From Bactericera cockerelli (Eukaryota > Arthropoda > Insecta > Hemiptera > Triozidae), in NCBI GenBank assembly GCA_024516035.1, contig JAMCCL010000104.1:1-64000 (forward strand): 64,000 nt of DNA. The letters are read 5' to 3'. Positions within the stretch are counted from its first letter, which is position 1, and every line of letters begins with the position of its first letter. Below the pieces are notes generated by a model that worked only from the letters and a program-made list of their open reading frames with translations, had not been told where the DNA came from and searched no databases. This document shows, one piece after another, positions 562 to 56,500 of this stretch. The translations under genes were made by a program, and so were the position numbers.

Positions 562-754
562 CATCATCATACATTTCATTGGCCAAGTACACCTCAGCTC
601 TATCACACAGCACGTTGGGCTCCTTGAACAGACCCAGAGCCTCATTGCAAGCTGCCATAGCCTCTTCACTCTCGTCGGCATGAAGATGGCAGTGGCAGAG
701 TTTCTCATTGGCCAGATAGGAGATCATCGGCTCGTCGCTTTCTGTCCTATGGAT
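562..754 (-). CDS. DNAJC3: DNAJC3 exon 7: TPR region, last exon in window
   Basis: 64 codons plus one base from IHRTESDEPMISYLANEKLC to VYLANEMYDD. Acceptor CTCTTCAG|ATCC, donor GATGATG|GTAAGT. The next exon is outside the window to the left. Confidence 0.92.
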
Positions 755-3700
755 CTGAAGAGGAAGGAAAATAAATCAATACCCCAATCAATACCCTAAA
801 GGGTGTAATAAAAGGGGGAGACTCATCAAAAAAAAGGGGGGGGGGGGGTACAGCACATTACTTACTCATCCGCGCCCCTTACTCTCCCGCGCACACGGAG
901 CTTTGAAAAAATGGGCACGTATTTCGCGATATATACATATTTATATCTACTCACCGACTTGGCGTGTCTCACGCAGTCCGCCCAGTCCTGGTCTCGTATG
1001 GCCTCCTCTATGTGAACCAGCAGCTTGTCTACCTTCTTCACCTTCTTGTAGTGGGGGAAGCACTCCTTAACTACTCATTTTTCCTCACGAGGTATGTGTT
1101 AAGTTCACACTTTCGTGATAGCGAGTGCTTCACCACTGATTTCTAACTGTAACCTAAATTTGAAAAGAAATTTTTTGTCGGCTCCGGGACTCGAACATGG
1201 GTCTGGCAACTCTCTTCCACCCAACCCAATCAATAAATCAATACCCTAAAGGGTGTAATAAAAGGGGGGAGACTCATAAAAAAAAGGGGGGGGGTAAAGT
1301 ACAGCACATTACTTACTCATCCGCGCCCCTTACTCTCCCGCGCACACGGAGCTTTGAAAAAATGGGCACATATTTCGCGATATATACATATTTCTATCTA
1401 CTCACCGACTTGGCGTGTCTCACGCAGTCCGCCCAGTCCTGGTCTCGTATCGCCTCCTCTATGTGGACCAGCAGCTTGTCTACCTTCTTCACCTTCTTGT
1501 AGTGGGGGAAGCACTCCTTGTGTTCCGGGTCCAGCTTCAGACACTCTCGGATTTCCCTGGAAAATTTAAATAAATTTATAACATCGTTTTATTTTAAAAG
1601 GAAAAAAAAAAAATATATTATAAAATTGAGAGAAAAAAAAAAATGATAAAATAGATTGAAAAATAAATAAATAAATAAAGAAGAAAAAATACTAATGTCC
1701 TAACTAAAAAAAAAAAACATCGTTTTATTAAAAAACAAGCATTTATTTTAGATGTTATAATACCATTGGACGAAAACTTGAACAAAGCATATGTTGAGAA
1801 GAGAAGGAAATATGAAGATCTCAAGTATCAAATGAGTCAAATGTATGGTTTTAGCACTGTTCAAGTAGTTCCTTTTATCATCAGTATTCAGTACAAATGG
1901 CTTGGTGCACAAACTAAATAACCAAGGACTGAAAGATTGTGGTCTGAAATCATCTGTTAAATTAATCGAACTCTGTCAAAAATCAGTAATACTATCAACT
2001 ACCAATATCATCCGGAAACGCCTCAATTTGTAGTCCTCACTTATTTACATCTTGTTTTTTATAACCGATGTATATTTATGTAACCTCAATAAAGAGTGAA
2101 ATATTAATAATATTTTCACAGTAAATACTCATATTTTATAAGGATGTAATTTTATTACTGGAAAAAAGGAAAAGTTAAAATTGGTTTCTGAAAATGTGAA
2201 TTCTAGAATCATAGATTCTCGAATGACCATTCTATTCGTTGACTGAAAGAAACTTGGAACATTACAAAATTCTTCTCATTCGAGTTTTTTTTCTAGTACA
2301 TTGTCCCGGCAGCTCAGTGGTAAAGGCGGCACTCTGTGAATCCAATGATTCCAGAGGTCGTGAGTTCGAAACCCAGCCGGAACATGACAAACGAACCTCC
2401 CATTTGGGATTTTTACCACACAATAATAATGTCCTGGGCTTAATTCTGGAATACAATAGGATGATAATGTTCATAAAACTAATTCTTATAAGTAAGTACA
2501 TATCCCCGTTTTCTTCACAGTTTTTAACTCTGAAGACGGGTATACCTTCCAATTATTTTTTATTGTAATAATTTATCTTTGTCAAATAAATGGAAATGTT
2601 GTTAAAAAAAAAGATAAATATTATATGCAGACATTGATAAATACTTGTATAGATTTTTTTTATGTGTGAATAGTAAGTGTATTCACTGTAGATTGATAGT
2701 GATACTGTAAAACACATCAGAACGCTTACCTCAGAGAGTCCTCCACATGAGCTACCCGGTACTCAGCTTCAGGTAGCTGATGGTGTGGTCTAGGCTTACC
2801 TCAGAGAGTCCTCCACATGAGCCACCCGGTACTCAGCTTCAGGTAGCTGATGGTGTGGTCTAGGCTTACCTCAGAGAGTCCTCCACATGAGCCACCCGGT
2901 ACTTAGCTTCAGGAAGCTGATGGTGTGGTCTAGGCTTACCTCAGAGAGTCCTCCACATGAGCCACCCGGTACTCAGCTTACTCAGCTTCAGGTAGCTGAT
3001 GGTGTGGTCTAGGCTTACCTCAGAGAGTCCTCCACATGAGCCACCCGGTACTCAGCTTCAGGTAGCCGATGGTGTGGTCTAGGCTTACCTCAGAGAGTCC
3101 TCCACATGAGCCACCCGGTACTCAGCTTCAGGTAGCTGATGGTGTGGTCTAGGCTTACCTCAGAGAGTCCTCCACATGAGCCACCCGGTACTCAGCTTCA
3201 GGTAGCTGATGGTGTGGTCTAGGCTTACCTCAGAGAGTCCTCCACATGAGCCACCCGGTACTCAGCTTCAGGTAGCTGATGGTGTGGTCTAGGCTTACCT
3301 CAGAGAGTCCTCCACATGAGCCACCCGGTACTCAGCTTCAGGTAGCTGATGGTGTGGTCTAGGCTTACCTCAGAGAGTCCTCCACATGAGCCACCCGGTA
3401 CTCAGCTTCAGGTAGCTGATGGTGTGGTCTAGGCTTACCTCAGAGAGTCCTCCACATGAGCCACCCGGTACTCAGCTTCAGGTAGCTGATGGTGTGGTCT
3501 AGGCTTACCTCAGAGAGTCCTCCACATGAGCCACCCGGTACTCAGCTTCAGGTAGCTGATGGTGTGGTCTAGGCTTACCTCAGAGAGTCCTCCACATGAG
3601 CCACCCGGTACTCAGCTTCAGGTAGCTGATGGTGTGGTCTAGGCTTACCTCAGAGAGTCCTCCACATGAGCCACCCGGTAGTGCAGCTTACTCAGCTTCA

Positions 3701-6700
3701 GGTAGCCGATGGTGTGGTCTAGGCTTACTCAGAGAGTCCTCCACATGAGCCACCGGTACTCAGCTTCAGGTAGCTGATGGTGTGGTCTAGGCTTACCTCA
3801 GAGAGTCCTCCACATGAGCCACCCGGTACTCAGCTTCAGGTAGCTGATGGTGTGGTCTAGGCTTACCTCAGAGAGTCCTCCACATGAGCCACCCGTACTC
3901 AGCTTCAGGTAGCCGATGGTGGGTCTAGGCTTACCTCAGAGAGTCCTCCACATGAGCCACCCGGTACTCAGCTTCAGGTGCTGATGGTGTGGTCTAGGCT
4001 TACCTCAGAGAGTCCTCCACATGAGCCACCGGTAGTGAGCTTACTCAGCTTCAGGTACTGATGGTGTGGTCTAGGCTTACCTCAGAGAGTCTCCACATGA
4101 GCCACCCGGTAGTGCAGCTTACTCAGCTTCAGGTAGCTGATGGTGTGGTCTAGGCTTACCTCAGAGAGTCCTCCACATGAGCCACCCGGTAGTGCAGCTT
4201 ACTCAGCTTCAGGTAGCTGATGGTGTGGTCTAGCTTACCTCAGAGAGTCCTCCACATGAGCCACCGGTAGTGTAGCTTACTCAGCTTCAGGTAGCCGATG
4301 TGTGGTCTAGGCTTACCTCAGAGAGTCCTCCACATGAGCCACCCGTACTCAGCTTACTCAGCTTCAGGTAGCTGATGGTGTGGTTAGGCTTACCTCAGAG
4401 AGTCCTCCACATGAGCCACCCGGTACTCAGCTTCAGGTAGCTGATGGTGTGGTCTAGGCTTACCTCAGAGAGTCCTCCACATGACACCCGGTACTCAGCT
4501 TACTCAGCTTCAGGTAGCCGATGGTGTGGTCTAGGCTTACCTCAGAGAGTCCTCCACATGAGCCACCCGTACTCAGCTTCAGGTAGCTGATGGTGTGGTC
4601 TAGGCTTACCTCAGAGAGTCCTCCACATGAGCCACCCGGTACTCAGCTTCAGGTAGCTGATGGTGTGGTCTAGGCTTACCTCAGAGAGTCCTCCACATGA
4701 GCCACCCGGTACTCAGCTTCAGTAGCAGATGTGTGGTCTAGGCTTACCTCAGAGAGTCCTCCACATGAGCCACCCGGTACTCAGCTTCAGGTAGCTGATG
4801 GTGTGTCTAGGCTTACCTCAGAGAGTCCTCCACATGAGCCACCCGTACTCAGCTTCAGGTAGCAGATGGTGTGGTCTAGGCTTACCTCAGAGAGTCCTCC
4901 ACATGAGCCACCCGGTACTCAGCTTCAGGTAGCTGATGGTGTGGTCTAGGCTTACCTCAGAGAGTCCTCCACATGAGCCACCCGGTACTCAGCTTCAGGT
5001 AGCTGATGGTGTGGTCTAGGCTTACCTCAGAGAGTCCTCCACATGAGCCACCCGGTACTCAGCTTCAGGTAGCTGATGGTGTGGTCTAGGCTTACCTCAG
5101 AGAGTCCTCCACATGAGCCACCCGGTACTCAGCTTCAGGTAGCTGATGGTGTGGTCTAGCTTACCTCAGAGAGTCCTCCACATGAGCCACCGTATGCAGC
5201 TTACTCAGCTTCAGTAGCCGATGGTGTGGTCTAGGCTTACCTCAGAGAGTCCTCCACATGAGCCACCCGGTACTCAGCTTCAGGTAGCTGATGGTGTGGT
5301 CTAGCTTACCTCAGAGAGTCCTCCACATGAGCCACCCGGTACTCAGCTTCAGGTAGCTGATGGTGTGGTCTAGGCTTACCTCAGAGAGTCCTCCACATGA
5401 GCCACCCGTACTCAGCTTCAGGTAGCCGATGGTGTGGTCTAGGCTTACCTCAGAGAGTCCTCCACATGAGCCACCCGGTACTCAGCTTCAGGTAGCTGAT
5501 GGTGTGGTCTAGGCTTACCTCAGAGAGTCCTCCACATGAGCCACCCGGTAGTGTAGCTTACTCAGCTTCAGGTAGCCGATGGTGTGGTCTAGGCTTACCT
5601 CAGAGAGTCCTCCACATGAGCCACCCGGTACTCAGCTTCAGGTAGCTGATGGTGGGTCTAGGCTTACCTCAGAGAGTCCTCCACATGAGCCACCCGGTAC
5701 TCAGCTTCAGGTAGCAGATGGTGTGGTCTAGGCTTACCTCAGAGAGTCCTCCACATGAGCCACCCGGTACTCAGCTTCAGGTAGCTGATGGTGTGGTCTA
5801 GGCTTACCTCAGAGAGTCCTCCACATGAGCCACCCGGTACTCAGCTTCAGGTAGCAGATGGTGTGGTCTAGGCTTACCTCAGAGAGTCCTCCACATGAGC
5901 CACCCGGTACTCAGCTTCAGGTAGCGATGGTGTGGTCTAGGCTTACCTCAGAGAGTCCTCCACATGAGCCACCCGGTAGTGCAGCTTACTCAGCTTCAGG
6001 TAGCGATGGTGTGGTCTAGGATTACCTCAGAGAGTCCTCCACATGAGCCACCCGGTACTCAGCTTCAGGTAGCAGATGGTGTGGTCTAGGCTTACCTCAG
6101 AGAGTCCTCCACATGAGCCACCCGGTAGTGCAGCTTACTCAGCTTCAGGTAGCAGATGGTGTGGTCTAGGCTTACCTCAGAGAGTCCTCCACATGAGCCA
6201 CCCGGTACTCAGCTTCAGGTAGCTGATGGTGTGGTCTAGGCTTACCTCAGAGAGTCCTTCACATGAGCCACCCGGTAGTGCAGCTTACTCACTTCAGGTA
6301 GCCGATGGTGTGGTCTAGGCTTACCTCAGAGAGTCCTCCACATGAGCCACCCGGTAGTCAGCTTCAGGTTGCTGATGGTGTGGTCTAGGCTTACCTCAGA
6401 GAGTCCTCCACATGAGCCACCCGGTACTCAGCTTCAGGTAGCTGATGGTGTGGTCTAGGCTTACCTCAGAGAGTCCTCCACATGAGCCACCCGGTACTCA
6501 GCTTCAGGTAGCTGATGGTGTGGTCTAGGCTTACCTCAGAGAGTCCTCCACATGAGCCACCCGGTACTCAGCTTCAGGTAGCTGATGGTGTGGTCTAGGC
6601 TTACCTCCGAGAGTCCTCCACATGAGCCACCCGGTACTCAGCTTCAGGTAGCCGATGGTGTGGTCTAGGCTTACCTCAGAGAGTCCTCCACATGAGCCAC

Positions 6701-9700
6701 CCGGTAGTGCAGCTACTCAGCTTCAGGTAGCTGATGGTGTGGTCTAGGCTTACCTCAGAGAGTCCTCCACATGAGCCACCCGGTAGTGCAGCTTACCAGC
6801 TTCAGGTAGCCGATGGTGTGGTCTAGGCTTACCTCAGAGAGTCCTCCACATGAGCCACCCGGTACTCAGCTTCAGGTTGCTGATGGTGTGGTCTAGGCTT
6901 ACCTCAGAGAGTCCTCCACATGAGCCACCCGGTACTCAGCTTCAGGTAGCTGATGGTGTGGTCTAGGCTTACCTCAGAGAGTCCTCCACATGAGCCACCC
7001 GGTACTCAGCTTCAGGTAGCCGATGGTGTGGTCTAGGCTTACCTCAGAGAGTCCTCCACATGAGCCACCGGTAGTGCAGCTTACTCAGCTTCAGGTAGCG
7101 ATGGTGTGGTCTAGGCTTACCTCAGAGAGTCCTCCACATGAGCCACCCGGTACTCAGCTTCAGGTAGCTGAGTGTGGTCTAGGCTTACCTCAGAGAGTCC
7201 TCCACATGAGCCACCCGCGTACTCAGCTTCAGGTAGCCGTGGTGTGGTCTAGGCTTACCTCAGAGAGTCCTCCACATGAGCCACCCGGTTGAGCTTACTC
7301 AGCTTCAGGTAGCTGATGGTGTGGTCTAGGCTTACCTCAGAGAGTCCTCCACATGAGCCACCCGGTAGTGCAGCTTACTCAGCTTCAGGTAGCTGATGGT
7401 GTGGTCTAGGCTTACCTCAGAGAGTCCTCCACATGAGCCACCCGGTATGCAGCTCTCAGCTTCAGGTAGCGATGGTGTGGTCTAGGCTTACCTCAGAGAG
7501 TCCTCCACATGAGCCACCCGGTATGCCTACCAGCTTCAGGTAGCAGATGGTGTGGTCTAGGCTTACCTCAGAGAGTCCTCCACATGAGCCACCCGGTACT
7601 CAGCTTCAGGTAGCCGATGGTGTGGTCTAGCTTACCTCAGAGAGTCCTCCACATGAGCCACCCGGTACTCAGCTTCAGGTAGCTGATGGTGTGGTCTAGG
7701 CTTACCTCAGAGAGTCCTCCACATGAGCCACCCGGTAGTGCAGCTACTCAGCTTCAGGTAGCAGATGGGTGGTCTAGGCTTACCTCAGAGAGTCCTCCAC
7801 ATGAGCCACCCGGTAGTGCAGCTTACTCAGCTTCAGGTAGCAGATGGTGTGGTCTAGGCTTACCTCAGAGAGTCCTCCACATGAGCCACCCGGTACTCAG
7901 CTTCAGGTAGCCGATGGTGTGGTCTAGGCTTACCTCAGAGAGTCCTCCACATGAGCCACCCGGTACTCAGCTTCAGGTAGCTGATGGTGTGGTCTAGGCT
8001 TACCTCAGAGAGTCCTCCACATGAGCCACCGCATGGCTACTCAGCTTCAGGTAGCTGATGGTGTGGTCTAGGCTTACCTCAAGAGTCCTCCACATGAGCC
8101 ACCCGGTACTCAGCTTCAGGTAGCTAATGGTGTGGTCTAGGCTTACCTCAGAGAGTCCTCCACATGAGCCACCCGGTAGTGCAGCTTATCAGCTTCAGGT
8201 AGCTGATGGTGGTCTAGGCTTACCTCAGAGAGTCCTCCACATGAGCCACCCGGTACTCAGCTTCAGGTAGCTGATGGTGTGGTCTAGGCTTACCTCAGAG
8301 AGTCCTCCACATGAGCCACCCGGTACTCAGCTTCAGGTAGCGATGGTGGGTCTAGCTTACCTCAGAGAGTCCTCCACATGAGCCACCCGGTACTCAGCTT
8401 CAGGTAGCTGATGGTGTGGTCTAGGCTTACCTCAGAGAGTCCTCCACATGAGCCACCCGTGTACTCAGCTTCAGGTAGTGATGTGGGTCTAGCTTACCTC
8501 AGAGAGTCCTCCACATGAGCCACCCGTACTCAGCTTCAGTAGTGATGGTGTGGTCTAGGCTTACCTCAGAGAGTCCTCCACATGAGCCACCCGGTACTCA
8601 GCTTCAGGTAGCGATGGTGTGGTCTAGGCTTACCTCAAAGTCCTCCACATGACCACCCGTACTCAGCTTCAGGTGCGATGGTGTGGTCTAGGCTTACCTC
8701 AGAGAGTCCTCACATGAGCACCGGTACTCAGCTTCAGTAGCTGAGGTGTGGTCTAGGCTTACCTCAGAGAGTCCTCAATGAGCCACCCGGTACTCAGCTT
8801 CAGGTAGCGATGGTGTGGTCTAGGCTTACCTCAGAGAGTCCTCACATAGCACCGGTATCAGCTTTCACTTCAGGTAGCGATGGTGGTCTAGCTTACCTCA
8901 GAGAGTCCTCCACATGAGCCACCGGTACCAGCTTCAGGTAGCTGATGGTGTGTCTAGGCTTACCTCAGAGAGTCCTCAATGAGCCACCGGTAGTGAGCTT
9001 ACTCGCTTCAGGTAGCCGTGGTGTGGTCTAGGCTTACCTCAGAGAGTCCTCCACATGAGCCACCGGTATAGCTTACTCGCTTCAGGTAGCTGATGGTGTG
9101 TCTAGGCTTACTCAGAGAGTCCCCACATGAGCCACCCGGTACTCAGCTTCAGGTAGCTGATGGTGTGGTCTAGCTACTCAAGAGTCCTCACATGAGCACC
9201 CGGTATCGCTTACCAGCTTCAGGTAGCGATGGTGTGTCTAGGCTTACCTCAGAGAGTCCTCCACAGAGCCACCCGGTACTCAGCTTCAGGTAGCGATGGT
9301 GTGGTCTAGGCTTACCTCAGAGAGTCCTCACATGACACCCGGTACTCAGCTTCAGGTACGATGGTGTGGTCTAGCTTACCTCAGAGAGTCTCCACATGAG
9401 CCACCGTACTCACTTCAGTAGCGATGGTGTGGTCTAGCTTACCTCAGAGAGTCCTCCACATGAGCCACCCGGTACTCAGCTTCAGGTAGCAATGTGTGTC
9501 TAGGCTTACCTCAGAGAGTCCTCCACATGAGCACCGGGTACTCAGCTTCAGTAGCAGATGGGTGTCTAGGCTTACCTCAGAGAGTCCTCCACATGACCAC
9601 CCGGTACTCAGCTTCAGGTAGCGATGTGTGTCTAGGCTTACCTCAGAGAGTCCTCCACATGAGCCACCCGGTCCTCCACATGAGCCACCCGGTACTCAGC

Positions 9701-12700
9701 TTCAGGTAGCTGATGGTGTGGTCTAGGCTTACCTCAGAGAGTCCTCCACATGAGCCACCCGGGACTTACTCAGCTTCAGGTAGCTGATGGTGTGGTCTAG
9801 GCTTACCTCAGAGAGTCCTCCACATGAGCCACCCGTAGTGCAGCTTACTCAGCTTCAGGTAGCTGATGGTGTGGTCTAGGCTTACCTCAGAGAGTCCTCC
9901 ACATGAGCCACCCGGTAGTGCAGCTTTCAGCTTCAGGTAGCTGATGGTGTGGTCTAGGATTACCTCAGAGAGTCCTCCACATGAGCCACCCGGTACTCAG
10001 CTTCAGGTAGCTGATGGTGTGGTCTAGGCTTACCTCAGAGAGTCCTCCACATGAACCACCCGGTACTCAGCTTCAGGTAGCTGATGGTGTGTGATGGTGT
10101 GGTCTAGGCTTACCTCAGAGAGTCCTCCACATGAGCCACCCGGTACTCAGCTTCAGGTAGCTGATGGTGTGGTCTAGGCTTACCTCAGAGAGTCCTCCAC
10201 ATGAACCACCCGGTACTCAGCTTCAGGTAGCTGATGGTGTGTGATGGTGTGGTCTAGGCTTACCTCAGAGAGTCCTCCACATGAGCCACCCGGTACTCAG
10301 CTTCAGGTAGCTGATGGTGTGGTCTAGGCTTACCTCAGAGAGTCCTCCACATGAACCACCCGGTACTCAGCTTCAGGTAGCTGATGGTGTGTGATGGTGT
10401 GGTCTAGGCTTACCTCAGAGAGTCCTCCACATGAGCCACCCGGTAGTGCAGCTTACTCAGCTTCAGGTAGCCGATCGTGTGGTCCGACGTCAACTTGGTT
10501 GTGGATCTCAAGTCCAAAATGGCCGACTGAACATCGCCCATCATTTCGTGACAGTTCGAGCGGAGCTCCCGAAATTCCGAGGACCAGGGACAGTTCTGCG
10601 AATAATAATAATAATAATTCCGTGTCCGTCAGATAGGTATTGACACCTAAATAACGGTGGTGAGAGGATTATATGGACGCCCAGATCCACTGTCTAGGCT
10701 CCTTTCATGTCCATTGATTCTATTTTGGTTTTAACGTCCTGACTTGAGGTAGACAGGACGAGGGTTTCACCCTCCATTCGCTGGGAATCGTACCAGCTAC
10801 CCACATTAACCTCACCCAGCCTGGGTAGGGCCGGAATCGCCAGCCTCACATGTTGGGAGGGGACAGAATTTTTTGTGCGAAAAGTCTGCCAATAAGAAAC
10901 TTATTTATTTAAGAAAGTTATTTTACTATAATTATTTGCCAGCCTTCGTGGCGTGACGGTTGTGACTACTGCCCGTCGTGCAGAGATTCCGAGTTCGATT
11001 CGCGGTTGGGGCAGACTTTTCGACGAAAATTCTTTAACCCTCCAAACACGTGAACGTGGCATTTCCGGTCCTGGGTGAGGTTAATGTGGGTAGCTGGTAC
11101 GATTCCCAGCGAATGGAGGGTAAAACCCTCGTCCTGACTACTTCAAATCAGGACGTAACTCGGAATTGGAATCAACTGGTCACAATAGATCTAAATAGAG
11201 GTCTGTGTGATAGTTGGTGCTTCTCTTGTGGAACTCCAACCAGTCTATAATATTAATAATAATCTCTCTATTTTACCAGTCTATAATATTAATAATAATC
11301 TCTCTATTTTAATTCAAGTGTCAACTGGTTAAGACACTATTCTGGGAATCCAGGGGGCGTAGGGATCCGTTGGTTCGAGTCCCACCTAATGCATAAATTT
11401 GCCTCATTAACTTGAGTATAAGACCACATAATAATAAGACTCTGAGGGTTAGGTGGTAGAAAATGCTTTAAGCATTAACCTCGCCCAGTGGTTACCTTCC
11501 ACTGAACAGTTTTATTATTATATTTAGCATTAATTGGTGTTTCTTGTGACAAAATGACGCTAGACTTAGGTTATAGGAGATGTATTGTTTGTAATATTAT
11601 TATTGTACAAATAAATAAAAGTATTCAATTCAATTCAAACTAATAGTTTTATTTTTTGTGTTAATCACTTTCGCGATACCTCAACTACTCAAATTTGCTT
11701 TACAAAATCCACGCTGAAACCTCGACTGTCCAAGACCGGACCGACCTCCAGGTTACAAGTCCTCCGCCTTATCAATTAAGCTACTGAGGTCGGTATGACA
11801 ATCAACTGTCATACCTGTCATAGCGATTAGCTCAGTGGTTAAGCACCCGCTTGCCATGCGGAAGGTCCCGGGTTCGATCCCCCGTGCCGACAAAAATTTG
11901 TATTCTTAATTTGTTTACAATTGTTTGTAAGGGATACCTTCCGGTACGCTCGTGTTGACCCAGCACCTAAATGGGAAGTATTGTGTCGCTTCTCGCCCAT
12001 TAGAGGGGAGGCATACTACGGGATGGGCAGGCTACAACACAGACCACAAGCGTCTACAGTAGCTCCTGTTTCACGGCTACGAAATAAAAAAGGCTGTGAA
12101 ACACTCATCTTTATATGTAAAAAAACTGTCTTAGCACTGAGCTAATTTTACAATGAAATATTCATAATATATAACTGTAAAATTATATATTATGTATAAA
12201 ATTATATACTTGTCTATATCATAAGTCTATGAATTAGTCCACATGACAATGAATCTTTGTCTCATATTATGAATATATATATGAGAATATATCATTGTTA
12301 CATGGATGTCGAACAAGTTGAAGCTACTTTTACCTCAATGAGAAAGTCGAGGTGTCGGATGGCCTCAGGGTAGTCTGCCATGGAGTGGTAGTGAAGGGCG
12401 TACACCTTGTAGCTCTCTAGCTGGGGCAGTTGCTGGTACATGTTGTAAGCCTCGGTAGTGAAAGGGTCATCTGAGCCATCTGCCTATAATCAGAAGTGGA
12501 GACGAGTTTAATAATAATAATAAAGAAACAATACAGAATTTCGTCTATATGAAAATTTATCTAAGTCGTATTTTTCTTTCTAACTAAAAAAAATTTCCTG
12601 GTTAGGTTTTTTCCAAATATTTCCATTTCATTCCAAGGTCATTCGTGAAAGAAAAATGCGTTTGGTTACTTTTAAAGATAAACAATGGACTTAAGTATAA

Positions 12701-20120: not shown

Positions 20121-20136
20121 TAATCCGGCCCTAAAT

Positions 20137-21260
20137 TTTGAAGCAGTGCACCAGGTTGGTGTGGGTACTAGGGTCTAGGGTCCAGGGTATAGGCCCAGGG
20201 TCGTCGTTGTGGCCACCTACCAAGTCTTGAAGCAGTGCACCAGGTTGGTGTGGGTACTAGGGTCTAGGGTCCAGAGTCTAGGGTCCAGGCTCCTCGTTGT
20301 GACCACCTACTAAGTCTTGAAGCAGTGCACCAGGTTGGTGTGGGTACTAGGGTCTAGGGTCCAGGGTATAGGCCCAGGCTCCTCGTTGTGGCCACCTACT
20401 AAGTCTTGAAGCAATGCACCAGGTTGGTGTGGGTACTAGGGTCTAGGGTCTAGGGTCCAGGGTCCTCGTTGTGGCCACCTACTAAGTCTTGAAGCAGTGC
20501 ACCAGGTTGGTGTGGGTACTAGAGGGTCTAGGGTCCAGGATATAGGGTCTAGGGTCCAGGGTAAGTATAGGCCCAGGGTCCTAGTTGTGGCCACCTACTA
20601 AGTCTTGAAGCAGTGCACCAGGTTGGTGTGGGTACTATAGGGTCTAGGGTCCAGGGTATAGGCCCAGGGTCTTCGTTGGGGCCACCTACTAAGTCTTGAA
20701 GCAGTGCACCAGGTTGGTGTGGGTACTAGGGTCTAGGGTCCAGGGCCCAGGGTCCTCGTTGTGACCACCTACTAAGTCTTGAAGCAGTGCACCAGGTTGG
20801 TGTGGGTACTATAGGGTCTAGGGTCCAGGGTATAGTTACCATACGTTTATTTATTTATTTTCTTTATAAAGAAACATTTTATACAAAGGTACTTCTCCTA
20901 AGCTTTGAAGAGCTTCTAAGAGAGGGTCCTAGGTCCAGGGTCCTCGTTGTGGCCACCTACTAAGTCTTGAAGCAGTGCACCAGGTTGGTGTGGGTACTAG
21001 GGTCTAGGGTCCAGGGTATAGGCCCAGGGTCCTCGTTGTGGCCACCTACTAAGTCTTGAAGCAGTGCACCAGGTTGGTGTGGGTACTAGGGTCTAGGGTC
21101 CAGGGTATAGGCCCAGGGTCCTCGTTGTGGCCACCTACTAAGTCTTGAAGCAGTGCACCAGGTTGGTGTGGGTACTAGGGTCTAGGGTCCAGGGTATAGG
21201 CCCAGGGTCCTCGTTGTGGCCACCTACTAAGTCTTGAAGCAGTGCACCAGGTTGGTGTCG
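20137..21260 (-). repeat. Tandem array of the WDR54 coding end and 3' UTR, ~12 copies of ~89 bp
   Basis: Each unit has CTTGAAGCAGTGCACCAGG, antisense of the last codons (TNLVHCFK) and the stop of WDR54, followed by GGGTCTAGGGTCCAGGGT variants. Starts of CTTGAAGCAGTG lie near 20226, 20317, 20406, 20488, 20608, 20696, 20779, 20968, 21055, 21144 and the gene's own at 21233. About 90 bp at 20836-20930 is a foreign insert also present at 62110-62182. Confidence 0.95.
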
Positions 21261-21358: not shown

Positions 21359-24300
21359 CTGGAAGAGATATTCATTATTTTTTTATTCATTGTCTGTCCC
21401 GGTAGCTCAGTGGTAAAGGCGGCACTCTGTGAATCCACAGGTTCCAGAGGTCGTGGGTTCGAAACCCAGCCGGGACATGGCGAGTTATCCTCCCATTTGG
21501 GATTTTTACCACAGAATAATATGTCTTGGGCTTACTGCTGAAATAATGGGACTTTAATAGTCCTAATCGGGCAGTATAAATAAGGCGATATTATTATTAT
21601 TTAGTATTTTTTATCATCTTTGTGTAAATTAAATTCCTGATATCATTATGTAACCTAGAGGTCGGTGGTTCAAGTCTCAGGTTCTGCAAAGATTTTTTTT
21701 TTTTTTTTTTAAAGTTTCCATTTATTTATTATGTACATTAACGTCTTCAACAAACAATGAGGATATACCCACCTTCAAAAGATAAAAAATCTTGTGCTGA
21801 AGGTGGGGAGTTTGAGTAGTTGTGAAAATCTCGAAAGTGATTAACACAAATATGATACCTTTCATTTTTAATTCGGGCCTAAACCTCTCTCCGGTTACGG
21901 AGACACTCTCCAATCTCTCCATAGTCCACACTCACCGTCACGTTGTTATTCTTGCACACCCGCCACACTTTCACAAACGAGTCCTCGGACACCGTCAGGA
22001 GACTGTCGCCTCCAATGGCCACATCCATAGCTGTGATGTACCGCGCATGCGCGGCCGTTTCCGTGAGGAGCCGAACGTTCGTGCAAGATCGGGTGCCATC
22101 GTGCGTGTAGTTGATTTTCGACGAGTCGTAGATTCGAATGTGGCCCGATCCGTAGGCGGCCGCTAGCCAGTCTTTCCAAAGATACATGCTCGTTACTGCC
22201 GAACTGGGGGGGGGAAAAAATATGGCCGAAAATGTAAGCTAATCGCCCCGCCCACTAGCAGACTGTCTGTGGATTAAGATATTAATTTAGCAACCATTTG
22301 AACCGCTTCCCAGCAGCTCCTGAGAGTTTTGTAAAGATCTTAATCTTTTGAAACTTTTCAACAGCTTCTGATGACCCACATACCCCAAAGTGTCCACCAT
22401 AGTAATCTGCAGAAGCTCTGTCCTGGGTAGAAGACATTCGATAGTCTATGGAGGCAATGACAATGACCCACTTACCCCAAAGTATCCACCATAGTAATCT
22501 GCAGAAGCTCTGTCCTGGGTAGAGGACAGTCGATAGTCTATGGAGGCAATGATAATGACCCACTTACCCCAGAGTATCCACCATGGCAATCTGCAGCAGC
22601 TCTGAGACACTCGATAGTGTATGGCGGCAATGATAATGACCCACTTACCCCAAAGTATCCACCATAGTAATCTGCAGAAGCTCTGTCCTCGGCAGAGGAC
22701 AGTCGATAGTCTGTGGAGGCAATGATGATTTTTTTTTTTTTGTTTAATTTAATTTATTTATTTATTTTTAAGTGCAATACAAAACAGATGTATGTCAATT
22801 ACAATGAAATTTGACATACACCCAATTACATTATAATACATTATAAAATGATGACCCACTTACCCCAAAGTATCCACCATGGCAATCTGCAGCAGCTCTG
22901 TCCCGTTGAAGTACCAGAGGCAGATGACGCCGCTGTCGTCTGCCGAGGCTAGGCGATAGTCTATGGAGGCAATGTCGGTGATCGCGTCCATGTGGCCCTC
23001 CTTGCGGTCCATGAAGGAGAGACAGGTCTCGTCATCCAGGACCCCGAACACGCGGAGAACACCTGCGCTGTTTCCTGGAAACCATCACAAAACAATAGAA
23101 TCATTATCAACATCTAAAGACATTGTCTCGCTCATCATTATCATCAGTTGGTAGCTTCCTCGTATCCGAATATATGAGGAAGCTACCAACTCGTATCTAG
23201 ATGATATCTTGAATGACATTCTGTCATTCAAGGCTGGAGATCATCACTTCCTCAGCTGTAGAAATTGTCTCGCTAAAGGACTATAAATAGAGAACAGCTA
23301 ACCCTAACAAACCTGGCTAGCTTGCAGTTTCGCAAGAGTATGGCTTAAGAAGAAAAAGCCCAAGTTCAAAACGGGCCAAACTTTTCAACTTATGTTGGCA
23401 GGAGACCATCACTTGCCCCAGCTGTAGCCAAGCTAGTTATAATAATAACAAAAGGATTGTCTTGTCGTGATAGCCAAAATGTCCCTAACAAATACCATTT
23501 TCTTGAAATTATTATTAAATCCTGTTGGGAATCGAACTGGTACAAAGCAAATCACTGTTAAGGGTGCCTATCTCTTTCACAAACGTCTACTTCTCTCCTA
23601 TAATAATCTACACTCCTTCAGGGACCGTACCACCTTCTTAGCGGCGCATAGTACTTCATTGTTCGATCGAACCACCTTCTTACCGGCACACAGGACTTCA
23701 CTATTCGATCGAACCACCTTCTTACCAGCACACAGTACTTCACTGTTCGATCGAACCACCTTCTTACCGGCACACAGAACTTCACTGTTCGATCGAACCA
23801 CCTTCTTACCGGCACACAGTACTTCACTGTTTGAATGAACCACCTTCTTACCGGCACACAGCACTTCACTGTTCGATCGAACCACCTTCTTACCGGCACA
23901 CAGTACTTCACTGTTCACCATCACTTCCTCAGCTATAGACATTGTCTCGCCAAAGGACTATAAACAGAGAGCAGCTAACCCTAACAAACCTGGCTAGCTT
24001 GCAGTTTCCCAAGAGTTTAATGGCTTAAGAAGGAAAAGCCCAAGTTCAGAACGAGCCAAACTTTTCAATTTATATTGGCAGGAGACCATCACTTGCCCCA
24101 GCTGTAGCTAAGCTAGTTATAATAATAACAAAAGGATTGTCTTGTCGTGCTAGCCAAAATGTCTCTAACAAACACCATTCTCTTGAAATTATTATTAAAT
24201 CCTTTTGGGAATCAAACTGGTATCAAGCAATTCACTGTTAAGCGTGCTTATGTCTTTCACAAACGTCTACTTCTCTCCTATAATAATCTATACTCCTTCA

Positions 24301-26115
24301 GGGACCGTACCACCTTCTTACCGGCACACAGAACTTCACTGTTCGATCGAACCACCTTCTTACCGGCACACAGCACTTCACTGTTCGATCGAACCACCTT
24401 CTTACCGGCACACAGTACTTCACTGTTCAGCGTGGCTATCCCTTTCACGAACGTGTACTCCTCGTCTGGTCCATCAGTGCAGGGGTGATGGAACAGCAGA
24501 TCCACACCATCTCTGTCGTAGATGTGTAGACCCAGTGTGGACCCTACCACTAAGACCACTTCAAATCCAAGGTCACACCATAACACCTGAAAAATAAAAG
24601 AATAACAGCGTTGAATGCACCGGTTCTCATAGGACCGAAGTTAAGGAACGTCCAAATCTTTTGAAATGGATATACCCATACCCATCTTGTTACTATCTAT
24701 AATTAACCAGCAGTTAACCCGTGCTTCGCCACGATGGTTGAGTGGGATTTACCCACAAAAATCTATGGAACGGTTTGGACTTTTGCAAAATCCTTTCTTA
24801 TTGCACGTATTCAGTATGCAAGGAATGTTGTGTCAAAATTTCAGCTCGCTAGGTATTACGGTTTGGGCTGTAGAGCGATGATCAGTCAGTCAGTCAGTGA
24901 CTTTGGCATTTATATATTAAGATTATAACCTCTGTTTCGTATTAATATAGGCCGGTTGGCTGGTGCTACTTGACGAGCGCTCGCCTCCTGCGGCGAGCTT
25001 GATAATTATGTGGAGGAATGACTCAGCACTTCTATTACTGTCTTTATTTGGAGGGTAATAATTGACAAGGCCCCCAGAACCAAGCCAATGCTGGTCTACT
25101 CTTTGTTTGTAACCTCCCAGCCAGACTTCTGGTCTCGTCCCTGTTTATAGTCCCCCAGCCAGACTGCTGGTCTCCTCCCTGTTTATAGTCCCGCAGCCAG
25201 ACTGCTAGTCTCCTCCCTGTTTATAGCCTCCCAGCCAGACTGCTGGTCTCTTCCCTGTTTATAGTCCCGCAGCCAGACTACTGGTCTTGTCCCTGTTTGT
25301 GTTTATAGTCCCCCAGCCAGACTGCTGGTCGTCTCCCTGTTTATAGTCCCTCAGCTAGACTATAATTATCACTAGCTTGAAAATAAATGAATGGAAACTT
25401 AAATAAAGAAAAAGCATGCTAAATATCAATCTATCAAGATTAGCAACATCTTTTTAGCCTTTGCTGTTAAAACTCTGGGGCCCTGGTCACTGGAAACACA
25501 GCATTTCGTAAAGAAGGTTGGCGATAAACTATCTCGTTTAAATGGCGATCAATGTTCCAAATGCTTCTTAATCCAAAAAATATCAATCGCCATTCAACGA
25601 GGAAATGCTGTGAGCATTATGGGCACTATCCCTGATGGCTTGCGTTTCGAAGAGCTGTTTTATATTTAAATAAATACAAAAGTTTCAATTATTAAAAAAA
25701 AAAATAGAGTAACACTTACCTGCCATGAAGTAATGATATTTTTCGGTTCCAGGTGCGGTTAGCTCTTTGAGAAGGTGGGTTTTTAGTGGGTGGAAATCCC
25801 ACACCCCAAGTCAGGATGACCTGGGTGTCTTTGAAAGATTTTTTCCTGCCTTCAACCAAAAAAAAAAAAAAAAAAAACACTTACCTGCATAACCTCACAC
25901 AGAACGTTATTATTATTGTGACAGGTAATGTAGCGGGGCCGCGTTTTGTCGGTGTCGGCCACGGGGATGATGTTGATGTTGTTCTGGTGCACCACGGCGA
26001 GGCTGGTGGCGGCCCCGCTGCCCTTGGCCTTCGCGCTGGTGCGGTTGACGGCCAGGTTGTTGCAGAGGGCCGAAGCGGTGGCCGAAAGAAGGAGGGTGGT
26101 CTCCCGTTCAAACAT
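21227..26115 (-). CDS. WDR54: WDR54-like WD-repeat protein, complete (gene-level entry)
   Basis: Five minus-strand exons: 25885-26115, 24406-24586, 22864-23074, 21936-22203 and 21227-21358. They total 1023 bp, 340 codons plus TAG, against about 334 residues for human WDR54. The N-terminus MFERETTLLLSATASALCNN aligns with the family's start and its ALCNNL motif. Further family features are TYGS-like TLGLHIYDRDG, TADDSG-like SADDSGVICLWYF, the block AAAYGSGHIRIYD and AHARYITAMD. The protein is a small WD40-type propeller; its cellular role is poorly established, so I assign none. Three of its exons carry tandem copies of their 3' ends in the adjoining intron or UTR. Confidence 0.92.
21395..21600 (+). 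repeat. tRNA-derived SINE family A, full length
   Basis: TGTCCCGGTAGCTCAGTGGT head, GGGTTCGAAACCC B box, tail GGGCAGTATAAATAAGGCGA. Lies in WDR54 intron 4 in antisense orientation to the gene. Confidence 0.92.
21650..21862. repeat. SINE family B copy interrupted by a T-rich insert
   Basis: GGTCGGTGGTTCAAGTCTCA at the left and GAGTTTGAGTAGTTGTGA to AACACAAATATGATACC at the right belong to family B. The middle (about 21690-21818) is a poly-T-led insert with CATCTTC-like AACGTCTTCAACAAACAATG, also found at 63485-63620. Confidence 0.75.
21936..22203 (-). CDS. WDR54: WDR54 exon 4
   Basis: Starts in a C-rich tract acceptor CCCCCAG|TTCGG and ends GTGACG|GTGAGT. Encodes SAVTSMYLWKDWLAAAYGSG, HIRIYDSSKINYTHDG and TVSEDSFVKVWRVC, with a clear WD-type repeat end (VKVWRV). 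The frame stays open past the donor, but joining here to exon 5 matches the family's C-terminus. Confidence 0.9.
22204..22364. other. Part of WDR54 intron 3 with no recognised repeat
   Basis: Sequence between the exon 4 acceptor and the first array unit; nothing identified. Confidence 0.6.
22365..22730 (-). repeat. Four ~91-bp tandem copies of WDR54 exon 3 3' end with donor
   Basis: Units begin near 22371, 22466, 22556 (81 bp) and 22637. Each holds antisense ATTGCCTCCATAGACTATCG, a shortened middle and ATGGTGGATACTTTGGGGTA donor. Relative to the exon the middle is deleted, which brings a CTCTACCCAG acceptor-like site next to GACAGAGCT in units 1 and 2, and a weaker one in unit 4; unit 3 lacks it. 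Confidence 0.92.
22731..22851 (-). mobile_element. Short poly(A)-tailed retrotransposed insert in the array
   Basis: A T-run on the plus strand opens ~115 bp of AT-rich sequence, flanked by AATGATGA on both sides (before the T-run and at about 22846-22855). This looks like a target-site duplication around a LINE-type tail in minus orientation. Confidence 0.65.
22864..23074 (-). CDS. WDR54: WDR54 exon 3, parent of the ~91-bp array
   Basis: Acceptor GTTTCCAG|GAAAC, donor CTTTGGG|GTAAGT. Encodes GNSAGVLRVFGVLDDETC, a WD-like IASIDYRLASADDSGVICLW and TELLQIAMVDTLG. Phases fit exons 2 and 4. Confidence 0.92.
23243..24440 (-). repeat. ~680-bp nested duplication carrying two 42-bp arrays
   Basis: 23243-23925 and 23931-24440 are similar over the family X piece, GGATTGTCTTGTCGTG, CTCTAACAAACACCATT, and TCTCCTATAATAATCTA, each ending in a 42-bp array. 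The distal array (about 23634-23925) has seven units and the proximal one has three including the exon. Each unit encodes NSEVLCAGKKVVRS with donor CCG|GTAAG; the first distal unit has lost it (GCTAAG). Confidence 0.93.
24406..24586 (-). CDS. WDR54: WDR54 exon 2, parent of the 42-bp array
   Basis: 60 codons plus one base, VLWCDLGFEVVLVVGSTLGL to TLNSEVLCA. Acceptor TTTTTCAG|GTGTTA, donor TGTGCCG|GTAAGA. Identical donors follow 42 and 84 bp downstream (24362-24363 and 24320-24321). Confidence 0.9.
24660..24930 (+). repeat. Dispersed repeat with CCCGTGCTTCGCC start and TATATATTAAGAT end
   Basis: Contains AACCCGTGCTTCGCCACG, a short CAGTCAGTCAGTCAGTGA run and TTTATATATTAAGAT at the right end. 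The same layout (GCTTCGCC start, short tandem run, TTTATAGATATAGAT end) occurs at 37541-38766 with very different interior. Confidence 0.6.
24958..25372 (+). repeat. VNTR-bearing dispersed element, family V
   Basis: Has GTGGAGGAATGACTCAGCAC, GGCCCCCAGAACCAAGCCAA and then about seven copies of a ~37-bp unit (CCCCAGCCAGACTGCTGGTC). Family copies in the window differ in unit number. Confidence 0.88.
25373..25884. other. WDR54 intron 1, no recognised feature
   Basis: AT-rich, with a decoy-like CACTTACCTGCCATGAAG at 25714 resembling the exon 1 donor context, and a 20-base A-run at 25858-25877 directly beside the exon 1 donor. Confidence 0.5.
25885..26115 (-). CDS. WDR54: WDR54 exon 1
   Basis: 77 codons from MFERETTLLL to NNVLCEVMQ. 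An in-frame ATG further upstream (26181) exists, but homology to family N-termini starts at this one. Donor ATGCAG|GTAAGT, phase 0. The start codon region has an inverted copy at 26162-26189. Confidence 0.9.
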
Positions 26116-26161: not shown

Positions 26162-26216
26162 ATGTTTGAACGGGAGACCACTCTCCTTCAACGGGAGACC
26201 ACCCTCCTTCTTCTTA
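26162..26216 (+). repeat. Inverted copy of the WDR54 start-codon region
   Basis: 26162-26189 is the reverse complement of 26088-26115 with one mismatch in 28, covering the ATG and the first nine codons. A second partial copy follows at 26190-26216. The spacer to the gene's own ATG is about 46 bp. Confidence 0.93.
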
Positions 26217-36253: not shown

Positions 36254-36812
36254 GCGTGCTATTATCACGTTATTAGCGCACTATTATACCCAAGCACTAG
36301 TTGATCTGCTATTGTTACGCTAAAAGCCTTCTAATATTACTACTTTTATACTACTTTTAGCAGATGCTAAAATTACGCTTAATGTATGCTATTATCACGT
36401 AATGTATGAGCGTGCTATTATCACGTTTTTAGCGCACTATTATACCCAAGCACTAGTTGATCTGCTATTGTTACGCTAAAAGCCTTCTAATATTACTACT
36501 TTTAGCAGATGCTAAAATTACGCTTAATGTATGCTATTATCACGTAATGTATGAGCGTGCTATTATCACGTTTTTAGCGCACTATTATACCCAAGCACTA
36601 GTTGATCTGCTATTGTTACGCTAAAAGCCTTCTAATATTACTACTTTTAGCAGATGCTAAAATTACGCTTAATGTATGCTATTATCACGTAATGTATGAG
36701 CGTGCTATTATCACGTTTTTAGCGCAATATTATACCCAAGCACTAGTTGATCTGCTATTGTTACGCTAAAAGCCTTCTAATATTACTACTTTTAGCAGCA
36801 TTTTATTCCACG
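36254..36812. repeat. 145-bp subterminal tandem repeat, about four units
   Basis: Unit starts near 36254, 36410, 36555 and 36700, each with GCGTGCTATTATCACG, ACCCAAGCACTAGTTGATC and CTACTTTTAGCAGATGC. The first unit carries an extra 11 bp. Part of the left end of the 6.76 kb element. Confidence 0.93.
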
Positions 36813-40668: not shown

Positions 40669-40714
40669 TAATTACAAAAAAAAATATTTTACAAATAGTA
40701 TACAATTATATAAT

Positions 40715-42420: not shown

Positions 42421-42439
42421 TTATAGGCGATATTATGTC

Positions 42440-42660
42440 ACTACCGCTTCAATAGCGTCGAAGCGCTAAAATACCGGTAAAATAGCGCTAAAAGACAGCA
42501 TAATAGCATGATAATAGCACGTGCTAATACTACCTAAATAGTATCGGTATTTTATTACTTGCGCTAAAACAGCGCTAAAAGACAGCATAATAGCATGATA
42601 ATAGCACGTGCTAATAGTACCTAAATAGTATCGGTATTTTATTACTTAAATATTAGCCTC
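42440..42660. repeat. Right subterminal repeat of the 6.76 kb element
   Basis: Two direct copies (about 42482 and 42556) of GCGCTAAAAGACAGCATAAT followed by AGCATGATAATAGCACGTGC and CTAAATAGTATCGG. Confidence 0.92.
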
Positions 42661-43540: not shown

Positions 43541-44333
43541 CATCTGATTCACAAAAAAAAGAAACATTCCAACCTACTCCAGGTATCTCTCAGGTATCTC
43601 CTTCTCTTTTCAGTCGAGAGGTTGGGGATTTCAGTTCGAGTCTCACTCAAGATACCGAAGTTCCAGTTAGAAATCAGTCGGTGATTACGTGTCCTTGAGC
43701 AAGTTCGAGAATTCAGGATAAATATTTTCAGTAAAAATTTTTGCTAACGTTTTAATTAATTTTACTTATTTTTGGCATTGGTAGGCAAAGCCATTCCATA
43801 CAGCCATTAATTATTTTAGTTAACAAGTCATTTTTTTCAAAGAGTGTTTACTTTTAAAGTTGTTTGAGAGATTGATTTGAAATAGAAATTTTGAAATTTT
43901 AAGTTGAGTGGAAAAAATTCTATCTAGAAGTAAATTCATACTAGGTAAACCTACATATATGGATTTGTAATAGATTTAAAAAATAATATATAAATACATT
44001 GGTATAGTGGCAAGGTATTCACATAGAAAATATATATCGCTATTACTTAAATTCTAATAAAAAAATCAATATTATCTAAAATTTATTTAAAAAAACAATA
44101 CTTCCTATTTTCTTTTATTTTATTTTAAAACAGATTTATATTAAAACACAACACTTCCCATTTTCTAATATTAGATAATAATTATCGGAAGTTCAATATA
44201 CCGGAAACATTATACTGTTTTTTCTGTTTTTTTTTTCCTTCTGTTTTTCATTTTCTGTTTATACTGACTGATTAAAGGCACCTTTTATATTTATGTCCCT
44301 GCTCTAAAACAAATATCTCAACATCCGTCCAGA
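43541..44333. other. Region upstream of the secreted-protein gene
   Basis: AT-rich. A TATA-like TTTTATATTTATG lies at about 44284-44296, some 40-50 bp before the start codon, and could be the core promoter. ACTTCC...GGAAGT palindrome at about 44152-44193. Confidence 0.4.
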
Positions 44334-44547
44334 ATGAAAATCCCAACAATTCTCGTTTGTCTGATGTGCGTCTGTTCCTACGCCTCTGGGGACGCCAATG
44401 AGGAGACCAACCCTTTTCTGGAGGCCGCCAACGCTCTGTTGCAGGAGGGAATGCAAGGAGGCGGGGCGGAGGGAGGAGCCAGTGGCTATGGAGGCGTGGC
44501 CTCGGGGATGTTTGGCCTGTTACAGACCGTGATGGCTAGTCAAGGAG
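44334..44547 (+). CDS. Secreted protein exon 1 (signal peptide)
   Basis: 71 codons plus one base. Signal peptide then EETNPFLEAANALLQEG and the Gly-rich GGAEGGASGYGGVASG, ending LLQTVMASQG. Donor AAGGAG|GTGAGA. The following intron is 10.2 kb. Confidence 0.85.
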
Positions 44548-53500: not shown

Positions 53501-56500
53501 CCAAGTTAAAGACACGAAGTCGGGTCTCAAATGATCCGTATGAAAAAAAAACAGAAAAAAAAAAAAAAAAAAAATTATGAATCTTTTCATGTCTTTCACG
53601 ATTGTTGGGGGGTCTCGAAAATAGGGGTCCCGGTGACCTAGGAAGTCAAACAAAAAGTCAAATCAACTTAGTTTTCAACGTAGAGCCCATTTCTGCAATA
53701 AAAATCGCGATTTTTGAAATTCATGTTGCACTTTTCGCTGGCTGAAAGTACATGAAATGCATGGGAACTATGTTTTGCGTAACCTTACACTCTGCCGGGA
53801 TGTCTCTTTCTTTGTATAGGCGTTCTTCACACCTCGGCCGAGGTGTTTGATCTCTAAAATAATGAACAAATTAACGTTGGAAATTCATGCAAATACTTCA
53901 GGAGAATCATAACCTGACACAACTACGAGTATATACCTAGGAGGTCGGTGGTTCAAGTCCCAATTTCGGTAACTAATATAATGTGCCTTGTCTTATTTAT
54001 ACTACCCGATTAGAACTAAGTACTTGAGTAGTCCCATTAATACAGCAGTAAGCCCAAGACGTATTATTACGTCAAAATCCCAAATGAGAGGATAACTTGT
54101 CATGCCCCGGCTGCGTTTCGAACACACGACCTATGGTTTCACAGAGTGCCGCCTTTACCACTGAGCTACTGGGACAGACATAATTATAATTACCAAGGTG
54201 ACTAACACAAAGTGGTGAGATCATAATTTGTCTTGTACCGGCCAGGTTTCGTTCGCGCGACCTCTGTATTACAAGTCAGACGCCTTGACCACTGAGCTAC
54301 CGGGACGTCTGAACTTATTATTATTTTTATATAATAAAATTATATACATATAATATTCGTGCCGACCTTAATGTCTCAGTGATTAAGAGCATTAGTTGCT
54401 GACCCGGAGGTTGCTGGTCCGAATCCCGGTCGGAGACGGAAATTCTGAACGAGTTTTTCCGTTTCCGGAATGGCATGGATGTAAAGGTAAAGTAACCTGA
54501 AGAAATGCGAAAAGGGGTTCCGGGGCACAATAATCTTTTTTTTAATTATTTTTTTTTTTACATTTTTTTTAGTTTTTTTTTTTTTTTTTTTTACAATTTT
54601 TGTGGCTCTCTCCCCATGGAATACTTCAAAGGATTTACTCACCTTCTTTTTTCTTCTCCCAGGTTTTAGTTTTTTTTTTTACAATTTTTGTGGCTCTCTC
54701 CCTAAGGAATACCTACTTCTAGGGGTTTACTCACCTTCTTTTTTCTTCCCCCAGGTAAAAGCAGTGGAGGAGGTGGCGCGGAGCTCCTGGGCTCTCTAGC
54801 CAGCGCTCTTCTCAACCAGGGAGCCAGTGGCGGCTCGGGAGGGTCTGGGTTCGATCCCCAGATTATCGGCCAACTTGTGTCCCTGTTTGCGGCCACCCAG
54901 AACTCCGGCCAAGATGGCTCCCAGGGCCGCAAGAGCAGTGGTAAGTTTCGAGGCCTGCGACTGTAATTGAGAACTCACGGGGGGTTTTTTTTTTTTTTTT
55001 TTAAAGCTTTATTAGGTAGAACACAATGAAATATAAAGAAAAACAAAAAGATTAAACAAATATACAAGAAGGAAAAAAAAGAGAGAAATGTCCTACCTAA
55101 AGGGCGGGGTTATTCTCTTCCACCCAACCCAAATCAGGATTTTGGGTTTGACGACAGTATGCCAGGTCCAATTATAGGAAATCAGAGCATATTTTTTTAA
55201 TTACAAAAAGGGATACGCACAATACCTACTTCTGTTATCTAATTTCTAACTTATTATTCTTTATTATTATTTCTTCTTCTTGTTTTTTACGATGGATGTG
55301 TGGAATAACAAGGAGAGATAGGGTGAGAAATGAGCGCACTAGGGGTACATTAAAAGTAGGACCCCTGGCAAAGAAAATACAAGAGAGTAGGCTGAGATGG
55401 TTTGGACATATAGAGCGAAGAGACGAAAACTATGTGAGTAAGAGAATACAGGAACTTCAAATAGACGGTAAAAGAAAGAGAGGAAGACGAAGACCAAAGA
55501 TGAGATGGAGAGACAAAGTTGAAGAAGACCTAAGAGAGAAAAACTGGAGAAAAGAGGACGCACAAAATAGAAAGATATGGAAGGAAATGATTCATGGAAC
55601 AAATGCCGACCCCAAGTAGGTTTGGGAAAAGGCAAAGTGAAAGAAGAAGAAGAAGAAGATTATTATTTCTTGTTTAATTCTAGTCCCTTTCTTGAAAAGG
55701 GTTGTTTAATTCTAGTCCCTTTCTTGAAAAACATGGTAAATACTTACCTACATATGAAAAGAAAAACAAATAACAAAATTAAGCTTTATCTACAAAAAAA
55801 CCAATAGGTACATAAATAAAACTAAATTATTTTTTTACAAAATTACTATGGACCTCTCAAGTAAAACAAATGTTTTAACCTCTCCATATTATTTCAATTT
55901 GTTTTCCAGGCAGTGGCGGAGAGTGGGACGGTCTACTGGACTTGGCCACCAATTTCATATCAGGGGCGGCGCAGGACCAAAACGGGGGCGGCTCCAATGG
56001 GGTGGGGGCGGACGCCCTTCTTAATCTACTGCCCATTATGATGAACTCACTGTCTGGTGAGTGAAAGAGAAGAAAAGAGAAAAGAAAAGTCGAGGTAGAT
56101 ATCAGAACACAATAGAATAGAACAATAGATTATTGAAGTGAAGAAAAGAAAATAGAAGAGAAAAGGAAGGATGACAAATTTTCGACGAATACAATACTTT
56201 CCTTATTATAGGATAAGGAAATTAAAAAAATATAAGAGGAAAGAGGAGAATAGACTATAATACGAAACGAAAAGAGATGAGGAAAAGAACAGGTGAAAAT
56301 AGAAAATGGCGGACACCATGCTAATAGCATATGTTGTCCGCCATTTTCTATTAAGGAAGAGCTTTACTTAAAATGCAGAGAGACCATTGGGAATCCTTCA
56401 TATATCATTTTATTGTTTTCAAATTTATGGTAACTTTTAGGGCGGAATTAATAGACAACATCAATAACAGACTTAAGTCGTTGGTAGGTGTCGATTTTCC

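Follow-up and report, generated by a model that had tools for sequence, protein, structure and literature searches.

Minisatellite-like tandem repeats that span exon-intron boundaries are known from amphioxus as mirages, and the accessible parts of two papers describe them for Adh3, the globin genes BflGb6 and BflGb9, troponin C and PGBD5 (PMC3087553, PMC3902484). In the available text of the former, their origin was called unclear and somatic instability was reported for the Adh3 mirage (PMC3087553). Here, we describe similar arrays in a stretch of 64,000 base pairs (bp) from the psyllid Bactericera cockerelli (in the following: the window), comprising bases 1-64000 of JAMCCL010000104.1, an unplaced scaffold of 84,494 bp (C52). 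In the genes for DNAJC3 and WDR54 and in further genes on the allelic contig, segments from the 3' edges of exons or coding sequences were tandemly duplicated independently of each other, and some have grown or shrunk to arrays of unequal size in the two haplotypes.

Four donor arrays of the window consist, like mirages, of units that span an exon and the adjoining intron, while the array at the WDR54 stop and a copy at an acceptor do not. Every donor unit contains a splice signal (GTAAG or GTGAG), and the amphioxus units, which also carry splice signals, range from 10-72 bp (Adh3) to ~160 bp (globins) in the portions of the papers at hand (PMC3087553, PMC3902484). The same portions report normal splicing, which in the psyllid is suggested by the encoded protein, and a haplotype difference of 6 vs 3 copies for BflGb6, comparable to the differences given below. 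On the other hand, the psyllid is a hemipteran insect, and one of its arrays comprises ~100 copies. Furthermore, its motif counts show an excess on the donor side and not at acceptors, whereas both sides are affected in the amphioxus globins as far as the accessible text goes, and its arrays include edges between stop codon and 3' untranslated region (UTR), which these parts of the sources do not mention for amphioxus (PMC3087553, PMC3902484). The psyllid case thus departs from amphioxus in its lineage, in the stop codons that are included, and in apparent scale and polarity, of which the latter two seem to be new. Among the papers listed in the literature searched, which took in few subscription papers, no report of mirages in insects was found. 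None of the 10 of 66 papers listed for psyllids contained the word psyllid, and of those listed for minisatellites at insect exon boundaries, the papers on the globins and PGBD5 of amphioxus were the only ones relevant by title. Since mirages have already been named, the view of the original prediction, made from the sequence alone, that no standard feature class exists was not borne out.

A minisatellite whose units supply splice donors is reportedly present in one gene; in the psyllid, by contrast, several genes are concerned and exon sequence lies within the unit. A further likeness exists to novel intron positions in Drosophila, for which part of the published account describes that tandem duplication of exonic sequence, or over an exon-intron boundary, gives a new intron (PMC2891723). 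However, the reading frames of WDR54 and DNAJC3 require no new intron at the arrays.

Exon-end and stop-codon arrays in two haplotypes

The original prediction had placed six duplications at gene junctions. All of them were found with Tandem Repeats Finder (TRF) and by direct reading, and their units have approximately the sizes stated before (70/80, ~296, 42 in two blocks, 92, 89 and 91-92 bp; Table 1). That the units span a coding/non-coding edge applies to five of them, namely four donors and the WDR54 stop, but not to the copy at the acceptor of a secreted-protein gene, whose unit is practically intronic, with no more than two exonic bases. The description as tandem copies also needs one correction, as the two copies at DNAJC3 exon 6 start 454 bp apart and are separated by a spacer of ~150-160 bp, hence they are not arranged head to tail. 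Each unit derives from the sequence of its own gene, in line with the claim of independent events.

C52 is allelic to ~20.62-20.70 Mb of a 30.7-Mb contig (C10). Most of the long aligned stretches are ~88-97% identical, with many large insertions between them, and this strong divergence indicates that the assembly retains an unpurged alternative haplotype. Copy numbers were compared by one identical unit search on both, which is stricter than the counts from TRF. The five exon-edge arrays are carried by both haplotypes in unequal copy numbers (C52 vs C10): 93 vs 15 for DNAJC3 exon 5 (C10 20623060-20624178), 2 vs 3 for DNAJC3 exon 6, 10 vs 5 for WDR54 exon 2, 3 vs 6 for WDR54 exon 3 and 11 vs 23 for the WDR54 stop. 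The acceptor unit of the secreted-protein gene showed 2 vs 1 copies. By another count, the DNAJC3 exon-5 array of C52, which extends over 7.7 kb, contains 107 copies. A self-comparison of 84,000 bases of C52 (offset <=1 kb, match >=30 bp, low complexity excluded) gave 15 complex local-duplication families, five of which span an exon 3' edge; the poly-T-rich acceptor copy was absent from these 15.

The identity of both genes is supported by their translations. The joined DNAJC3 exons align through the exon junction to the DNAJC3 structures 3ieg and 2y4t (best E 3e-47), and the joined WDR54 protein matches Pfam WDR54 (1.7e-37) over nearly its full length. WDR54 is also 82% identical over the full length to the 339-amino-acid WDR54 of Cacopsylla melanoneura. 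Read with the first donors and the first stop, it comprises no insertion at either donor-array junction compared to the Cacopsylla protein, and the C-terminal residue is identical.

On C10, beyond the allele of the window, a second copy of the DNAJC3 exon-8 end lies 179 bp downstream of the first and includes the donor and the start of the intron (20618000-20618270), and the DNAJC3 stop is spanned by ~50-bp units running through the 3' UTR. In the window, a 21-bp stretch from the first WDR54 codons recurs twice in inverted orientation directly upstream of the WDR54 start codon (26169-26210; start codon at 26115), possibly as a relic of fold-back synthesis.

Table 1. Positions of exons, arrays and copies (window coordinates unless C10 is given)
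Feature	Position	Strand	Description
DNAJC3 exon 5	10414..10595	-	donor GT 10412-10413; 3' end and donor gave rise to the 70/80-bp array
70/80-bp array	2724..10484	-	unit: DNAJC3 exon-5 end, donor, 9 bases past the exon edge
DNAJC3 exon 6	1406..1556	-	donor GT 1404-1405
~296-bp duplication	774..1519	-	3' part of DNAJC3 exon 6, donor, intron start; copies ~1224-1519 and 774-1069
WDR54 exon 2	24406..24586	-	donor GT 24404-24405; Pfam WDR54 and Cacopsylla WDR54 alignment
42-bp array, WDR54 exon-2 donor	24309..24428	-	22 exonic bases and 20 beyond them; 3 copies, one of them the true exon end
Second 42-bp block	23629..23916	-	~7 copies, nested in a larger duplication of the WDR54 exon-2 region
WDR54 exon 3	22864..23074	-	donor GT 22862-22863
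92-bp array, WDR54 exon-3 end and donor	22371..22726	-	~4 copies (TRF); ~140 bp downstream of the exon
89-bp array, WDR54 stop and 3' UTR	20131..21258	-	stop TAG 21227-21229; unit: last codons, stop, 3' UTR
91-92-bp duplication, secreted-protein gene	54582..54756	+	2 copies; polypyrimidine tract and AG before exon 2 (exon start 54755)
Stop-spanning copies outside the window (IQUB, DNAJC3, three sulfotransferases)	C10:20590383-20591007; 20615860-20616260; 20720635-20720717; 20747824-20748168; 20750647-20751278		

Distribution over gene edges and donor motifs

In 180 kb of C10, 62 edges of seven genes were located (25 donors, 27 acceptors, 6 stops and 4 starts). They were placed by typed motifs, some with mismatches, and DNAJC3 exons 1 and 3, the IQUB acceptors and the stop of the secreted-protein gene were left out. 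Within this region, the duplications show a 3'-edge polarity. Edge-spanning duplications were determined for five of the 25 donors (DNAJC3 exons 5, 6 and 8, WDR54 exons 2 and 3), for one of the 27 acceptors (DNAJC3 exon 6) and for none of the four starts, while five of the six stops were spanned at 30 bits and four at 60 bits. On visual inspection, every one of the six (WDR54, IQUB, DNAJC3 and three sulfotransferases) lies within a duplication; the script missed one with stop-proximal mismatches. The IQUB stop array comprises 11 units of 56 bp.

For comparison, local copies were counted at random non-coding positions of C10, of which 324/2400 (13.5%) carried one at 30 bits and 209/2400 (8.7%) at 60 bits. 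For positions matched in guanine-cytosine (GC) content (0.35-0.60), the respective values were 429/2400 (17.9%) and 297/2400 (12.4%). Outside the exon-edge arrays, they decreased to 235/2293 and 123/2293, and to 293/2240 and 162/2240 with GC matching. At 60 bits, the background therefore amounts to 5-9% of random positions, or 7-12% when GC-matched, and since every copy of every array is tallied, these controls are conservative.

Compared to this background, the stops are clearly enriched (4/6 at 60 bits; p = 8e-4 against all and 1e-4 against positions outside the arrays; GC-matched 0.003 and 4e-4). Donors and stops taken together (9/31) likewise exceed it (p = 0.001 and 3e-5; GC-matched 0.011 and 3e-4), and both results also hold at 30 bits (pooled p 0.0008-0.04). 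Taken alone, the enrichment of donors (5/25) is only suggestive, with p = 0.06 and 0.01 at 60 bits and 0.19 and 0.033 when GC-matched. Acceptors were not enriched over random positions (p 0.8-0.97 for the 27 acceptors at 60 bits). As the two genes of the window were picked for carrying arrays, the donor signal is in part a result of this choice. This does not apply to the DNAJC3 exon-8 donor or to the IQUB, DNAJC3 and sulfotransferase stops, which lie outside the window.

Base composition could contribute to these differences. The non-exon families on C10 amount to 0.28, 0.31, 0.22 and 0.16 per kb across four GC bins from 0.35 to 0.55, whereas the ~69 kb below 0.35 hold only 4 families and the ~7 kb above 0.55 hold none. 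GC thus has a few-fold effect, but as the sole cause GC-richness was rejected; GC matching weakens the pooled excess of donors and stops without removing it. The excess of gene edges over random DNA is thus not fully accounted for by GC, and transcription-coupled breakage as its cause would be a guess.

Genome-wide, triplets in which a motif recurs every 38-69 bp were counted and compared to the reversed motif, which preserves the motif composition. The donor motif MAGGTRAG gave 12,353 triplets vs 1,943 for the reversed motif, in agreement with a separate reverse run. For the strict donor CAGGTGAGT, 2,365 vs 56 triplets were found, and for CAGGTAAGT in units of 70-100 bp 530 vs 8, so that strict donors are 42- to 66-fold more frequent as triplets than their reverse. 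Single MAGGTRAG motifs are just 1.15 times commoner than the reverse, even with the arrays counted in (96,092 vs 83,445). Acceptor triplets YTTYCAGG amounted to 679 vs 353, and several of the listed units contain CAGGT, so they may be donors. With TTTTYCAGA, a strict acceptor chosen to avoid CAGGT, the triplets were below the control genome-wide (61 vs 141). At the level of motifs, tandem donors are therefore in large excess genome-wide, while tandem acceptors are not. Extrapolated from these counts, donor arrays may number in the hundreds.

Arrays of U1 small nuclear RNA genes were considered as a source of the tandem CAGGTAAGT motifs and are unlikely, as the 39-100-bp units are too short for a U1 gene. 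Two family-wide searches were of limited use. A genome-wide sample of kinase exons gave 134 listed matches without loci, and domain matches are too coarse for copies of 20-60 bp. The search with the sulfotransferase family showed one tandem last-exon copy (C10:20748033) among the six last-exon places listed and overlooked the shorter known copies of another gene.

The idea that exon borders are favoured is accordingly retained in part. The pooled donors and stops lie above random positions and donor motifs are in excess, but this extends neither to acceptors nor to starts, and strict acceptor triplets stay below their control. As for the mechanisms proposed near splice sites, neither R-loops nor slippage nor templated repair found support. 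Stops in the region read are affected at least as often as donors, and splice sites as such can therefore not be the whole cause.

Origin of the arrays and alternative explanations

Altogether, we consider it likely that the psyllid arrays are minisatellites of the mirage type, in which 3' edges of exons or coding sequences were duplicated and expanded and later copies were tolerated behind the first donor or stop. The initial duplication would arise through break repair or template switching, and the arrays would then enlarge by unequal exchange. Presumably the upstream-most donor or the first stop is used, so that the first copy stays functional; later copies would then end up in an intron or 3' UTR at little cost. 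If a copy includes an acceptor or a start, it would lengthen the messenger RNA and could be removed by selection. Perfect palindromes at two of eight unit junctions, namely WDR54 exon 2 (12 bp) and one sulfotransferase stop (18 bp), give a hint of fold-back synthesis in break repair.

Several points weigh against this interpretation. The remaining six junctions show no palindrome, the use of the first donor is deduced from the protein, and the DNAJC3 exon-6 acceptor on C10 itself carries a duplication. By themselves, donors miss significance against the full controls at 60 bits and never reach it at 30 bits (0.11-0.47). The donor claim leans mainly on the motif counts, since a real exon-end position was established just in the region read, and these counts are inflated by long arrays. 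Counted by eye among the listed matches, the lax donor motif gave 8 loci in the first 5.13 Mb of contig C1 vs 26 control loci in at least 115 Mb, an excess by loci of ~7-fold; among the 8 loci, one is of low complexity, one is not tandem-like and two have a common unit. Furthermore, the reversed-motif control ignores the GC content of the unit around the motif, and below 35% GC duplication families become scarcer.

The most serious alternative would be that no hotspot exists. Duplications would then be uniform in a repeat-rich genome, where exonic ones are merely recognisable and coding ones were purged by selection. The frequent arrays at random positions, the acceptors at background level and the non-significant donors would fit such a situation. 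However, the 9 of 31 donors and stops remain above both the plain and the GC-matched controls, the stops do so even by themselves, and the strict donor triplets exceed the reversed motif genome-wide. Altogether, this makes a uniform distribution unlikely. It is very improbable that the arrays are selected for a function, for example as donor copies that recruit U1 and thereby suppress premature polyadenylation in long introns, or as a reserve of alternative exon ends. The donor 8-mer of the 107-copy DNAJC3 array is indeed 99.5% conserved, with only 4/63 windows more conserved. However, in five further tests on four arrays, one of which was analysed for both haplotypes, 29/82, 34/82, 8/35, 62/85 and 41/49 windows exceeded the donor or stop motif. 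Since the motif is thus no better conserved than its neighbours in five of six tests, a function of the copies is not supported; in addition, arrays of stop codons do not agree with a donor role and the copy numbers vary widely between alleles.

Units that belong to a mobile or dispersed repeat with targeting to exon ends would be conceivable because some unrelated arrays of the window are dispersed, such as a 38-bp unit at four places. Against this, all 123 listed genome matches of the DNAJC3 exon-5 end fall on C52 or on the allelic place of C10. In the search with the WDR54 region (40 of 3568 candidates scored), array matches among the 48 listed were confined to C52 and C10, the remainder being neighbouring repeats. 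As every unit is also the sequence of its own local gene, this origin is hardly credible. The same low probability is assigned to an assembly error or unpurged duplication as the source of the arrays. C52 is an unplaced scaffold of 84 kb whose placement may have been impeded by repeats, but five exon-edge arrays recur on the 30.7-Mb contig C10, which carries more of them beyond the allele of the window.

Beyond the mirage-type origin favoured here, psyllid genomes might possess an active mechanism with a preference for copying the 3' borders of transcribed units, namely exon ends with their donors and coding ends with their stops, into tandem arrays. It could be linked to transcription or RNA processing, and a sizeable share of genes would carry a private, fast-evolving exon-end array. 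This extension is doubtful at present. If true, such a process would provide a standing supply of intron and 3' UTR growth and raw material for exons and introns.

While mirages have so far been described singly per gene in amphioxus, the psyllid represents a second, distant lineage. Its internal controls (donor vs acceptor, stop vs start and two diverged haplotypes) make the birth, spread and tolerance of arrays measurable. This is of relevance for the lengthening of introns, for new introns or exons from duplicated borders and for a spliceosome facing ~100 near-identical donors in one intron. In practice, exon-end arrays can cause errors in gene models and in the scaffolding of psyllid assemblies.

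Further repeats in the region

Besides the exon-edge arrays, the dispersed 38-bp minisatellite unit (TGCTGGTCTACTCCC...) is located at 25089-25361, 46630-47052, 49563-49675 and 60083-60157 of the window; its copy number varies and it is present on C10, too. Two further tandem repeats with units of 145 and 87 bp (36254-36798 and 42478-42647) share stretches like GTGCTATTATCA on opposite strands, as judged by eye, and are perhaps one repeat family. A reverse transcriptase encoded in the window has its nearest protein in Diaphorina citri (54% identity); like the WDR54 match to Cacopsylla melanoneura, this points to a psyllid and speaks against amphioxus as the origin of the DNA. At C10:20703576-20703810, an array of 77-79 bp shows a coding-looking unit ending in CCG, directly followed by GTAAAA (CCG/GTAAAA), with no gene recognised nearby.

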